Shown here: positions 854 to 5,649 of the stretch, piece after piece
How the letters are laid out: every line of letters begins with the position of its first letter
How positions within the stretch are numbered: position 1 is the stretch's first letter
IMG/VR virus record: IMGVR_UViG_3300028388_004089
Coordinates: 1-23,898 of that record
Source: a virus
DNA: 23,898 bases
Reading direction: 5' to 3' (one strand)
Position numbers and translations under genes: made by a program
Notes under the pieces: model-generated
What the model saw: the letters and a program-made list of their open reading frames with translations, nothing else
What the model was told of the DNA's origin: nothing
Database searches by the model: none

Positions 854-1345
854 TTAAACCTCCAAAAGCATTAATTGCCCAAAACCGAGGGATTTTTTTT
901 CCTCAGTTAATAATTGTATCTGTTTTTCAATTCGGCACTTTTCAATAGTCCCTATTTTTGCCTGAGCTATTGCCTCCTGTTTTTGGATTTCGAGAAATTT
1001 TACAATCTCGTCGATTTCCTTAACTCTCATTTTTTTTATGCTTTTTAGCCTTATCGCTTTTCCTACCTGGTCCGATTCGGGGTCTAGTAATTCTTTTCTG
1101 ATTTTACGATATTCAGAAATCGTTTTATCGTCGAAAAGTTTAGCGTTAAAAAGCTCCTTTAAGGGAATCTCCAGAAATTCGGCTAATTTCGGAAAGTGCT
1201 CTACGGCTAGTTGCCTTTCCTCGTTTTCGACAAGGCTGATAAACTTTATAGAAACACCAAGGGCCTCGGCTATAGCCTCCTGACTGATTTCCTGGGCCTT
1301 TCGCGTTGACCTGATTAATTCACTGACTGACTTTTTAGCTTTCAC
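854..1345 (-). CDS. XRE-family helix-turn-helix regulator
   Basis: A 163-residue protein with an N-terminal Cro/CI-type helix-turn-helix (residues about 8-66; the core reads ISQEAIAEALGVSIKFISLVE) and a long C-terminal region (about 75-155) rich in Lys/Glu that looks like a coiled-coil dimerisation arm. It lacks the S24 autoprotease domain of CI repressors, so it is more likely a Cro-like or early/late switch regulator than a RecA-sensitive repressor. The start is GTG at 1345, inside the overlap GTGA with the RusA stop, with Shine-Dalgarno GGGGGAG. It is co-transcribed with the resolvase. Targets are unknown; I found no clear operator array next to it. Confidence 0.8.
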   Translation of the reverse strand: MKAKKSVSELIRSTRKAQEISQEAIAEALGVSIKFISLVENEERQLAVEHFPKLAEFLEIPLKELFNAKLFDDKTISEYRKIRKELLDPESDQVGKAIRLKSIKKMRVKEIDEIVKFLEIQKQEAIAQAKIGTIEKCRIEKQIQLLTEEKKSLGFGQLMLLEV

Positions 1346-1752
1346 TGTTCTCCCCCGATTTTATAAAGCCTAATTAATGTTTTCATTTCCCCACCTATAA
1401 AACGTCGGGCCTCGATTCGCTCGATCTGTTTATCGTTTTCAAAAACCCCCAGGCTTTCCATAACGTCTTGAGGCCCCTCGATACAGTTAGAGGTGTCCGG
1501 GAGCGCTACTCGATTTAAAAAATGAAATTCAAAGTAGGCAAAAATCGGCCCCTTATAAGGTAGGCCCTTAAATCTAGTTCTCGCGTGGGCAACGTGAGCC
1601 GAAGCGATAGCCTCCCAGGTTTTAAAACGTGTCGACGGCAAGCTGCGGCTTTTGCCGTAGGCGTCCTTAAAAAGTCGGCGACTGTTTTTTTTAATGCCCA
1701 CTCGACCCGGAATAGAAACCGAGAAAAGTAGGTTCTTTTTATGGTTTTGCAA
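1342..1752 (-). CDS. rusA: RusA-type Holliday junction resolvase
   Basis: A member of the RusA endonuclease family, which cuts Holliday junctions during phage recombination and replication. Starting at TTG 1752 it is 136 aa, close to the family norm. It begins with the typical beta-strand LLFSVSIPGRVGIKK. The active-site region reads LPDTSN-CIEGPQDVMESLGVFENDKQIE, giving Asp86, Asn89, Asp96 and Asp107. The residue matching RusA Asp72 appears to be Ser88, which may reduce or alter catalysis. The ORF stays open to a GTG at 1800, but that start has no Shine-Dalgarno and lies at the edge of a hairpin, whereas TTG 1752 follows GGGGGG at 5 bp. It overlaps the regulator downstream by 4 bp. Confidence 0.8.
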   Translation of the reverse strand: MQNHKKNLLFSVSIPGRVGIKKNSRRLFKDAYGKSRSLPSTRFKTWEAIASAHVAHARTRFKGLPYKGPIFAYFEFHFLNRVALPDTSNCIEGPQDVMESLGVFENDKQIERIEARRFIGGEMKTLIRLYKIGGEQ

Positions 1753-1802
1753 ATAAACCCCCCGTTTATTACCCTTTTTTGGGTGTTCTCCTATAAACAC
1801 TG

Positions 1803-1841
1803 AAAAGGGCCGGCTTTTTTCCCGTGGGCCGGCCTTTTTTT
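1803..1841. terminator. Bidirectional intrinsic terminator
   Basis: A 7-bp perfect stem (GGCCGGC 1808-1814 with GCCGGCC 1828-1834) around a 13-nt loop. It is flanked by four A's on the left and seven T's on the right, which extend the stem as A-T pairs. The minus-strand form directly follows the stop codon of the DUF4214-domain gene and ends in CTTTT. The plus-strand form has the better T-tract. On the minus strand it would attenuate transcription between the early genes and the rusA-regulator pair. Confidence 0.7.
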
Positions 1842-2959: not shown

Positions 2960-3277
2960 TCAGAACTCCCTTTCTAACTGAACTGACAATAGCGACTGAA
3001 TGACCTGGGCCTTAGGCACCTTTTTAAAATTCTTTTCCAATACGCTATAAAGCTCATGCTTTCGTTTCGCTGAAAGTCCTGGAATTTTATTTAAGGCGTT
3101 AGAGACTCGCTGAAAATCCTGATTTAGTGAAATCGGTTTATTGTCTTGAGGCTCTACGACTGGCGCCCTGGTCGTTAGCTCCGGGCGGGCGGCAATTTCG
3201 GGCGCACTTTCAACGACCTTTTTTGCTACTTTCTTTTTTCGCACGGCTTTCTTTTTAGTTGTTTTTGTTTTTTTCAT
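2960..3277 (-). CDS. Lys-rich-tailed early protein, 105 aa
   Basis: A 105-residue protein with an extremely basic N-terminal arm (residues 1-21, mostly Lys, Arg and Thr) resembling histone-H1-like or nucleoid-protein tails. A Pro/Ala-rich linker (about 22-48) leads to a compact helical domain (about 50-105) with LNKIPGLSAKRKHELYSVLE. This architecture is typical of proteins whose arm binds DNA or RNA nonspecifically, but it matches no family I can name. The start ATG follows AGGGGGA and overlaps the preceding gene by 23 bp. It follows the helicase region, so a role in replication or DNA handling is a reasonable inference. Confidence 0.6.
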   Translation of the reverse strand: MKKTKTTKKKAVRKKKVAKKVVESAPEIAARPELTTRAPVVEPQDNKPISLNQDFQRVSNALNKIPGLSAKRKHELYSVLEKNFKKVPKAQVIQSLLSVQLEREF

Positions 3278-3608
3278 TTTTCCCCCTTGGGTTGTTTTTT
3301 AAAAAGGGCCACGCCGAAAGCATGATCTCCTTGGTTTTCTCTCTCCAGTTTTTACCATGTTTCATTTCTAGGACCTCGACCTCATGCCAATAGTCTAACC
3401 CACCACTGTTATCAGTCGATATAAGGCAGTTTCGGAATAGTTCTCGGCCCTCGGGTGTTTTTAGTAGGCGCGGGTGTTTTTTTAGGACCTGAATGAACAG
3501 GTCGGCTCCGTGCGGCCTTAGCCCACCTTGGATAATCATTTTGTTCCAGAGTTTTAAATTCTCTCTCTCTTGTCTGTTGTGATTTTCCGATTTCATATTT
3601 TTTCTCAT
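3255..3608 (-). CDS. Hypothetical early protein, 117 aa
   Basis: The start ATG at 3608 has a strong Shine-Dalgarno (AAGGGGAG); a second in-frame ATG is at residue 5. The product is a soluble, probably alpha-helical protein with a regular mix of charged and hydrophobic residues (KKHPRLLKTPEGRELFRNC, then WHEVEVLEMKHGKNWREK) and a Lys/Asn-rich tail. No known domain is recognised. It overlaps the 3' end of the DnaB-like gene by 197 bp in a different frame. The good ribosome site and protein-like composition favour it as real. Confidence 0.65.
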   Translation of the reverse strand: MRKNMKSENHNRQERENLKLWNKMIIQGGLRPHGADLFIQVLKKHPRLLKTPEGRELFRNCLISTDNSGGLDYWHEVEVLEMKHGKNWREKTKEIMLSAWPFLKNNPRGKNEKNKNN

Positions 3609-4458
3609 AGTCTCCCCTTAAGGTATTAAAGGCCAGACGGCCCGTGTATCTGTTCGCCGTGCTATTCAATCTATTTTTAACAATTGAGACGTAAGTCTCG
3701 GCAATTCCCGTTTGAGGGAAAAACGCTCCAGGCCCCACAGTGATCGCAGTCGTTGCAATTTTATAAAGGTCGCTAGAGCCGTGAAAGTCCTCAATGCTGG
3801 GGGCGTAGGTCTGGTTATTGCTTTTTCTCATGTGACTGACGAGAATGATTGGAACGTTTTCCTCAAGGACGAGATCGCGAGCGGTTTTTGCAATCTCTTT
3901 AATCGCTCGATTTTCGTTAACGTCGTCGAAATCGAAGTAGTGAACATGGTCGATAATTATCAGGTCGGTTTTTTTGGAAATTTGGAGAACTCGCTCGACC
4001 ATTTGCGTCACTCCAAAATCCCCACGTTTATAAAAAATTTTCAGGTCTCCCCGGTATTTTTCCAAGAACTCCATATTTGCCTCGTGTTCAATTTTCGCGT
4101 CTTCCGGGAGTGTTTGCCCAAGTGCCCACCGTTGAAAGTCACACGGGCGATTGTGGTGCGTCTGATAGCGTCTCTGGAATATTTCGAACTTCAATCTGCG
4201 CGTAATTTCGTAACGCGACGCCTCAAGCGCAAAAAAGTGGCAGCGCTTTTTTTGGGCTAGACACGCCTTGGCAATGTTGACGCAGAACTGGGTTTTGCCG
4301 GCCCCGCTGGGCGCCCCGATCAGGATTAAATCGTCCGGCGCGATGCCGACAAGGGCGTCGTCGAGAAACGAGTTTCCGTAAGAAATCAATCGGTCGCGCA
4401 GGTCGAGCCTGTAGGCGCAGTCGGGCTTTAAGTCGTCACTCACTGATCTAAAAAACAC
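3412..4458 (-). CDS. DnaB-like replicative helicase / RecA-fold ATPase (compact)
   Basis: A P-loop ATPase of the DnaB/SF4 type, expected to drive or load at the phage replication fork. Numbered from GTG 4458: Walker A GAPSGAGKT at 48-56, the catalytic-Glu segment ALEAS with Glu79, Walker B LIIIDH with Asp170, and a sensor motif VSHMRKSN at about 207-214. At about 348 aa it lacks the usual DnaB N-terminal primase-binding domain. I chose GTG 4458 because AGGAGG lies 9 bp upstream; a TTG at 4500 is in frame but embedded in the upstream gene. The last 65 or so residues are basic and Pro-rich, beyond the conserved core, and overlap the next gene for 197 bp. It follows the replisome organiser directly. 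Confidence 0.8.
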   Translation of the reverse strand: MFFRSVSDDLKPDCAYRLDLRDRLISYGNSFLDDALVGIAPDDLILIGAPSGAGKTQFCVNIAKACLAQKKRCHFFALEASRYEITRRLKFEIFQRRYQTHHNRPCDFQRWALGQTLPEDAKIEHEANMEFLEKYRGDLKIFYKRGDFGVTQMVERVLQISKKTDLIIIDHVHYFDFDDVNENRAIKEIAKTARDLVLEENVPIILVSHMRKSNNQTYAPSIEDFHGSSDLYKIATTAITVGPGAFFPQTGIAETYVSIVKNRLNSTANRYTGRLAFNTLRGDYEKKYEIGKSQQTREREFKTLEQNDYPRWAKAARSRPVHSGPKKTPAPTKNTRGPRTIPKLPYID

Positions 4459-5200
4459 GTTTTTTATCCTCCTCGCGCTCTCGCGCCTCTCTCTCCGCAA
4501 TCTCGGCGGCGACTTGCTCGATGAACTCGGGCACCTTTTCCCTAGTAGGCTTTTCCTCCTTGAAACTCTCCCAGTAGGCTTTCTCGCCGAAGAAGTTTGA
4601 AAGCCGGTAGGGAAATTTCATTCCTGGGTTTTCAGAAAACGATCGAACGTAATTCCATGCGTATTGATACAGGTTTTCAATTGGCTCTAATTGAGAAAGC
4701 TTTTCAATATTCTTGAGAGCTAGTTTTTTGCTTCCCTTGTCGCCGTCGCTTGGCCAATTTTTCCAAAGCTCCAAAAACTCCGGAGGGTAATTTTTTGGCC
4801 CGATTTTGGGCGCCGATTTCGTGGATTTTTGCGAGCGTTGCGATTTCGTTTTTTTCGAAATCGTCCTCTCCTCTCTTCTTTCTTTCTCTTCTAGGGGTAA
4901 AATGAGCCCTAATTCCAGTAACTTGGAAACAGGCCTCGTGGTAGCCTCGTGGTAGATTCGCGCAATGTGCCTCAAGGTTGCCACGAGGGTCACACAAGCC
5001 CCGTCCCTGGATAGGTCAAGGATAGCCAAAAAAACTCGAAATTCTGTATGATTTAATTGCTGGATTTTTGGGTCCAACATGAAGCCCCTTTGAAGCCTAA
5101 AAAACTGCGAAGTATTAAACAATTTTCCTTTACTATCTGTGTGATATTTTTCCCAGTTAGCGATTCTAACTCGGATTATTTCTGGTTGTTTTTTAGGCAA
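4448..5200 (-). CDS. Phage replisome organiser / replication initiator
   Basis: A 250-residue protein with a winged-helix N-terminal region (about 38-100), preceded by the typical opening IRVRIANWEKYH. There is a Lys/Ser-rich linker (about 105-132) and a C-terminal domain (about 135-222) ending in FPYRLSNFFGEKAYWESF, the pattern seen in DnaD/lambda-O-like initiators that recruit helicase. The tail is highly charged. It probably binds the origin and recruits the ATPase encoded next; the genes overlap by 11 bp. The start is taken as TTG 5200, after GGGGG, because the conserved opening lies upstream of the first ATG (residue 41). It is the first gene of the early operon after the 176-bp intergenic region. 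Confidence 0.7.
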   Translation of the reverse strand: MPKKQPEIIRVRIANWEKYHTDSKGKLFNTSQFFRLQRGFMLDPKIQQLNHTEFRVFLAILDLSRDGACVTLVATLRHIARIYHEATTRPVSKLLELGLILPLEEKERREERTISKKTKSQRSQKSTKSAPKIGPKNYPPEFLELWKNWPSDGDKGSKKLALKNIEKLSQLEPIENLYQYAWNYVRSFSENPGMKFPYRLSNFFGEKAYWESFKEEKPTREKVPEFIEQVAAEIAEREAREREEDKKRVF

Positions 5201-5376
5201 TTTGGCCCCCGTTTTGTTTTGCCGGTTGCCTTTCGAAAGAAAAAATCGTAAAAAAAAGATTAAAATTTTTCCGGTTTCGGCAAGGTTTCCGGTAAATAGG
5301 CCTGGAGTAATCCGGGCTTTTTTTTTGCAATTTTATTCAATGATAGCGAAATTTTGCAATCTTAAAAAAAACTAGG
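5201..5376. other. Intergenic region upstream of the replication initiator
   Basis: This is the largest intergenic gap outside 639-853. It holds the plus-strand terminator at 5298-5326. It also holds short G/C-rich elements at 5221-5230 (GCCGGTTGCC) and 5271-5292 (CCGGTTTCGG and GGTTTCCGG), and two copies of TTTTGCAAT at 5323-5331 and 5352-5360, 29 bp apart. The rest is A/T-rich runs. These could be initiator- or regulator-binding sites or part of an origin. I could not find a convincing minus-strand promoter for the early operon. Confidence 0.45.
5298..5326 (+). terminator. Strong intrinsic terminator on the plus strand
   Basis: The hairpin AGGCCTGGA-GTAA-TCCGGGCTT has nine pairs (two G-T) closed by a GNRA-type GTAA tetraloop. 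It is followed by an uninterrupted T-run (5318-5326), all on the plus strand. Read on the minus strand the run is upstream and the downstream bases are TATTTACC, so it would terminate minus-strand RNA poorly. No plus-strand gene is visible upstream, which makes the orientation odd. Confidence 0.75.
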
Positions 5377-5649
5377 TTAACGAAAAAGACCATTCCCTAG
5401 AACTTTCGGGGCCTTGGGGTCGTTGACGTTTTGCTTCTCACGAATAACCCATTTTAAAAATTTTAAGGGTTGGGCGTCGCACTTTGTATGGATAAAATCA
5501 GTTAACAATTTCCCGCGCAGGCTTTTTTTCTCGAGCACTTTTAAAAGCTCGGGACCGTGGGCGTGAGACATTACGACATAAAGGTACGGCAAGTTTTCAA
5601 CGTCGCCCCCACTAATAAATAAAATTCTAGATCTTAATAACGGGTCCAA
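5377..5649 (-). CDS. Hypothetical protein, 90 aa, end of the late operon
   Basis: Starts at TTG 5649, just after the upstream stop, with AGGG about 7 bp before. The product has a hydrophobic strand-rich N-terminal half (ILFISGGDVENLPYLYVVM), then a basic helical half (LLKVLEKKSLRGKLLTDFIH, later LKFLKWVIREK). There is no signal peptide or recognised domain. It is the last gene before the 176-bp intergenic region and is probably transcribed with the lysis and accessory genes. The function is unknown. Confidence 0.55.
   Translation of the reverse strand: MDPLLRSRILFISGGDVENLPYLYVVMSHAHGPELLKVLEKKSLRGKLLTDFIHTKCDAQPLKFLKWVIREKQNVNDPKAPKVLGNGLFR

Follow-up and report, generated by a model that had tools for sequence, protein, structure and literature searches.

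Opposite the 5' leader of a phage replication initiator gene we found two consecutive hairpins, the second of them terminator-like, that probably mark a cis-antisense RNA which would pair with the leader and lower expression of the initiator. The gene lies in a stretch of 23,898 bases from a viral record (the window), and what is established by computation is the hairpins themselves, a strand bias in their folding in the window and in one relative (L011), and a fixed distance to the initiator start in three phages. Since the same arrangement stands at a near-equal distance in two distant phages, we infer that an antisense RNA probably limits the amount of initiator. The regulator would be of an ordinary kind, unusually placed; its anatomy is well supported, and the transcript itself is predicted from sequence.

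Genomic context of the initiator gene

A sequence-only reading of the window had placed every gene on the minus strand, and the family searches are consistent with this: 11 of the 20 minus-strand ORFs scanned matched a Pfam or PHROGs family, and one of ten plus-strand ORFs gave a marginal match of unknown function (E 0.0009). The genes fall into two modules: a late one of tailed-phage type, with terminase, portal, head, tape measure and endolysin-like genes, and one for replication, with the initiator, a DnaB-type helicase, RusA and an HTH regulator. The late module closes with an ORF that stops at 5377 and has no family match in Pfam or PHROGs, the initiator starts from TTG 5200, and the 176-nt gap between them holds, in minus-strand order, a weak terminator, a possible promoter and the leader. 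The features discussed below are as follows.

5400–5364, minus strand: possible terminator closing the upstream (late) operon, a weak stem followed by T8 (terminator scan)
5359–5330, minus strand: possible promoter of the initiator mRNA, TTGCAA/18/TAAAAT, 9/12 (consensus match only)
5298–5326, plus strand: intrinsic-terminator-like hairpin with T-run, at which the antisense RNA is proposed to end (sequence, terminator scan)
5218–5296, plus strand: long rod-shaped imperfect (bulged) hairpin over the initiator 5' leader, proposed main stem-loop of the antisense RNA (folding)
5210–5206, minus strand: GGGGG run resembling a ribosome site (sequence)
5200–5198, minus strand: TTG, initiator start codon, in agreement with aligned relatives
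4448–5200, minus strand: replication initiator, 250 aa, proposed target (position, alignment to relatives)
5090–5118, plus strand: promoter of the sequence-only reading, TTGAAG/17/TATTAA, consensus match 8/12, not supported
4933–4988, no strand assigned: iteron-like repeats in the initiator gene, GCCTCGTGGTA twice in tandem (4933–4954) with an inverted arm that reaches 4988; candidate for the origin (repeat search)
3412–4500, minus strand: DnaB-type replicative helicase, after the initiator (family match)

The protein that we call the initiator has no Pfam or PHROGs match of its own; its putative identity comes from its place before a DnaB-type helicase and from alignment to relatives, of whose initiators 10 were scanned: 5 matched PHROGs for replication initiation and a sixth a PHROG for helicase loaders (E ≤0.001). 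GGGG runs and TTG starts are also seen in several of the initiators compared here, and the RusA ORF (1342–1800, minus strand) probably has its true start at an internal TTG preceded by GGGGGG, judging by the sequence and the RusA of L007. If used, the possible minus-strand promoter would set the 5' end of the initiator mRNA at the A-run facing the tail of the terminator. It is flanked by a direct repeat, TTTTGCAATTTTA (5323–5335) and TTTTGCAATCTTA (5352–5364), 29 nt apart, which could be regulator sites.

A rod and a terminator opposite the initiator leader

The plus-strand hairpin from which the sequence-only reading set out, 9 bp with a GTAA loop and a T-run, is present as described: arms at 5298–5306 and 5311–5319 enclose the GTAA, and the T-run extends to 5326. 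Five of the nine pairs are G-C, and two are G.U on the plus strand, becoming A.C mismatches on the minus strand. In our terminator scan, which scores stem energy plus T-tail, the hairpin (there 5299–5318) ranks second on the plus strand. By score alone it is not significant over 24 kb, because plus-strand matches scoring at least 28.9 arise 0.44 times per block-shuffled window. Its placing is less expected, as both best plus-strand terminators fall within the 1167 of 23,898 bases (4.9%) outside minus-strand genes, for which random placement gives 0.0024. Searched for as a DNA pattern in viral contigs, the hairpin was found at six loci, none with a T-run directly after it or a related context. 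The first-ranked match, 1807–1835 (plus strand, dG −17.8, T-run), lies in a 39-nt gap before the RusA ORF; it has a short T-run on its minus side too, perhaps making it bidirectional, and no rod upstream (z −0.83).

The rod, which the earlier reading had missed, adjoins the terminator on its 5' side and lies on the same strand. Rod and terminator together (5215–5327, plus strand) fold at −38.7 kcal/mol with a z of −4.36, and none of 200 shuffles folded as well, whereas the minus strand of the same stretch reaches −28.2 (z −3.08) with a looser terminator stem. A sliding fold in 25-nt steps missed the rod's register, the plus strand there never falling below z −2.41. Structured stretches of similar z occur elsewhere in the window, for example at 4900–4984.

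The same arrangement in distant relatives

Helicase searches gave loci L002–L022 at 41–49% identity, apart from one short weak match (L021). No close relatives were found by initiator, helicase, L022 helicase or initiator, or phage DNA search, and a terminase search for them gave one locus only, at 42%. Two distant relatives, L022 and L011, with helicases 45–46% identical, have a rod and a terminator antisense to the initiator. L022, a phage contig from a metagenome-assembled genome, has neighbouring genes that match exonuclease VIII, RecT and metallophosphoesterase families; its antisense strand carries a 10-pair terminator hairpin with T-run at 3028–3054 and the rod, folding at z −6.48, which none of 200 shuffles equalled. 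In L011 the initiator starts at TTG 3311, and the antisense terminator (3181–3213) with its rod folds at z −3.05, the sense strand at −1.35; this terminator scored 24.5 and was included only after the cut-off had been lowered from 25. As L011, L012 and L020 are identical over the element, they were counted once and give no covariation signal. A survey of 200 genomes near the L022 assembly produced matches at E ≤0.001 in 133, and adds no relative because the best match besides L022 itself (E 1.8e-7) covers the ATPase motif region.

The distance from terminator edge to TTG start is 98–99 nt in the window, 97 in L022 and 98 in L011. When the leaders of 12 relatives were shuffled (400 shuffles per leader, with a score limit of 24 chosen after L011 had been seen at 24.5), 0.0075 loci were expected to have an antisense match at that distance and 2 of 12 were seen, while 0.19 loci were expected to have any such match within 240 nt; the start codons of L002 and L018 are uncertain in this comparison. 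At that distance ten of the 13 loci, window included, show no such antisense match; in some of them weaker ones occur elsewhere. The initiators of L008 and Pseudanabaena phage Pan5 begin close behind the upstream gene, which leaves no comparable leader, and such tight spacing may explain some of the absences. That the hairpins are chance structures with no function would fit the 0.44 expected per shuffled window, but not the same distance in two further phages or the rods, and we regard it as very improbable.

Terminator-like matches in general are not preceded by such structure. Both strands of 13 loci (141.6 kb) gave 15 matches scoring at least 25; upstream z is −5.7 and −3.9 for the two that precede initiators and ranges from −1.2 to +1.0 for the other 13. 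This set used 13 of 23 sources (the window and L001–L022), leaving out L001 (part of the window); L010, L013, L016, L017 and L019 (from the same contigs as L002–L006); L012, L020 and L015 (match scores equal to those of L011 or L014, identity having been checked for L012 and L020 only); and L021 (37% over 62 residues). These figures bear on the idea that the terminator merely keeps stray antisense transcription out of the initiator promoter and the late operon, with no regulatory RNA or with interference alone. The rodless terminator before RusA and the possible initiator promoter just past the 5298 terminator agree with this, as does lambda, where, in the available parts of PMC3985674, the pO promoter acts on pR transcription and oop RNA leaves O-P mRNA stability unchanged. 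An insulator needs no rod, however, and all three initiator-linked terminators have one while 13 other terminator-like matches do not; we think this explanation rather unlikely.

Another explanation places the function on the sense strand or in the DNA, with the dyads and repeats acting as operator or as sites bound by the initiator, or with the 5' leader folding so as to stabilise the initiator mRNA. The minus strand beats its shuffles too, in the window (above) and in L022 (sense z −3.74), where the strand bias in folding energy is almost nil (−43.8 vs −43.6). One arm of the L022 rod also contains an operator-like 17-bp palindrome, AGTTGTTGGGTACAACT (3061–3077), and the window has TTTCCGGT twice together with a 10-bp palindrome. 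Such an element would not account for the antisense-side T-runs at three loci, or for the sense strand folding less well in the window and in L011, and we consider it improbable.

Promoter matches and the 5' end of the RNA

The sequence-only reading had started the RNA at about 5125, from the TTGAAG/TATTAA pair, so that it overlapped the initiator's start codon and ribosome site. The pair is indeed in the sequence, yet a match of 8/12 is uninformative: matches of at least 8/12 number 142 on the window's plus strand (5.9 per kb, one every 170 bp), and the pair is absent from a 9-of-12 scan. An RNA of 5125–5330 folds at z −1.67 only, which disfavours that 5' end, and with the promoter unsupported both the start at about 5125 and the overlap with start codon and ribosome site lose their basis. 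An antisense RNA ending near 5326 is backed by the plus-strand fold, the same anatomy and distance in two relatives and the recovery of the corresponding lambda terminator (below).

Matches of 8/12 or better number 7 in 5000–5290 against 2.6 in shuffles, and the search for an antisense promoter in or just before the window initiator gave only weak 8/12 matches near its start. In L022 the antisense strand has TTGACA/17/TATACC (10/12) inside the rod, where about 0.03 such matches are expected in 125 bases (at a density of four per 14.6 kb); an RNA begun there would therefore be without half the rod. The L011 antisense rod also contains TTGACA. RNAs begun at these TTGACA sites, if made, would be about 80 nt long and would overlap no more of the leader than its distal half. 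Two 14-nt arms, 5172–5185 and 5301–5314, are 79% complementary and join the first initiator codons with the terminator stem; in a longer antisense RNA this pairing could act as an antiterminator.

A candidate origin within the initiator gene

The iteron-like repeats at 4933–4988, a region that folds strongly, suggest a lambda-like origin inside the initiator gene, and the L022 initiator gene has iteron-like repeats of its own at 3460–3504. With an origin so near, the plus-strand RNA might be a replication primer or an origin-activating transcript, as was once proposed for OOP and as in RNA-based origins, and transcription near ori does matter in lambda according to the available text of PMC3985674. 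The RNA would run away from the repeats, however, and according to the same text the idea that oop RNA takes part in replication came to be seen as unlikely; we rejected the primer role on the direction of the RNA and give it hardly any weight.

Proposed mechanism

On the antisense reading that we prefer, a cis-antisense RNA of roughly 70 to 130 nt would be encoded on the plus strand, in the stretch from the initiator start to the region of the minus-strand promoter. It would consist of the rod and the intrinsic terminator and be transcribed from a putative promoter between mid-rod and the first initiator codons. As the full complement of the initiator mRNA 5' leader, it would pair with the leader and so reduce the initiator, through a duplex cut by RNase III or by hindering ribosome loading, and the initiator level would thereby follow genome copy number or the phase of the phage. 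The terminator would halt antisense transcription short of the initiator promoter. Two more specific mechanisms known from plasmids were tried and not supported. For sense-leader attenuation of the pT181 or pIP501 type, no sense terminator scoring at least 19 lies in the last 100 nt. For sequestration of the ribosome site, as in pSK41, blocking the 5' leader failed to lower the accessibility of that site, which went from 0.22 to 0.45 in the window and from 0.69 to 0.65 in L022. The two routes named above remain, together with transcription interference.

Comparison with known systems

Among plasmids, controlling the initiator by antisense RNA is a standard means of setting copy number. The window element shares the position of plasmid counter-transcribed RNAs (ctRNAs), 5218–5326 on the plus strand lying between the initiator start at 5200 and the next ORF at 5377, antisense to the leader, and also their predicted form, a stem-loop or stem-loops and an intrinsic terminator on the antisense strand. 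Rfam gave no match at the gathering score and no ctRNA family among the matches below threshold.

Run on lambda as a control, the scan found one strong antisense terminator, at 38605–38626, 60–81 nt before O (score 27.0, upstream z −2.25), which from the lambda map we take to be the OOP terminator. A figure legend in PMC3985674 names tO and pO in this region. The likeness of the window to lambda lies in an antisense terminator shortly before an O-type initiator and, as far as the accessible parts of PMC3985674 and PMC12197685 go, in a short opposite-strand RNA running away from the initiator gene, with ori inside that gene. The position is thus common to both but the target is not, OOP being directed at cII in those sources. 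Overlap of the OOP type with the 3' end of cII is absent from the window, whose terminator ends at 5326; the upstream ORF, which has no family match, has its end at 5377, past the terminator, so that the initiator leader is the only transcript overlapped.

Plasmid ctRNAs are likewise antisense to the initiator mRNA leader, and in the available portions of PMC5703833 and PMC4485353 their sizes are about 83 nt for pSK41 RNAI, 87 nt for pT181 RNAI and 48 nt for pMV158 RNAII. In those portions, pSK41 RNAI, with two stem-loops and pairing about 100 nt upstream of the initiation region, comes closer to the window anatomy than pMV158 RNAII, a single hairpin with an intrinsic-terminator end. Unlike these plasmid systems, the element sits in the genome of a tailed phage, beside an O/DnaD-like initiator and a helicase, and has no predicted attenuator or ribosome-site-sequestering fold, no convincing antisense promoter and no Rfam ctRNA match. 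ArrA of Bacillus subtilis, in the accessible part of PMC12112137, is an antisense RNA over the 5' untranslated region of an initiator gene, though of the chromosomal initiator DnaA, and the parallel is drawn by position, not by sequence. The literature searched, mostly titles and abstract openings with subscription literature largely outside it, contained no antisense RNA against a phage O-type initiator leader, and the available parts of PMC7067206 and PMC7157519 held no counter-example.

Tentatively, and with less assurance than for the antisense RNA itself, these phages could represent a ctRNA class that controls O/DnaD-type initiators by leader pairing, with a fixed geometry, a rod and a terminator edge 97–99 nt from the start codon, kept between phages whose replication proteins are less than 50% identical, and possibly with plasmid-style copy control. 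The lambda RNA in this position acts on cII, and here the proposed target is the initiator. If this holds in several distant phages, it would mean a plasmid-like brake on replication in uncultured phages, and an antisense rod and terminator about 98 nt before the start would provide an anatomical signature that can be searched for in other phage genomes.
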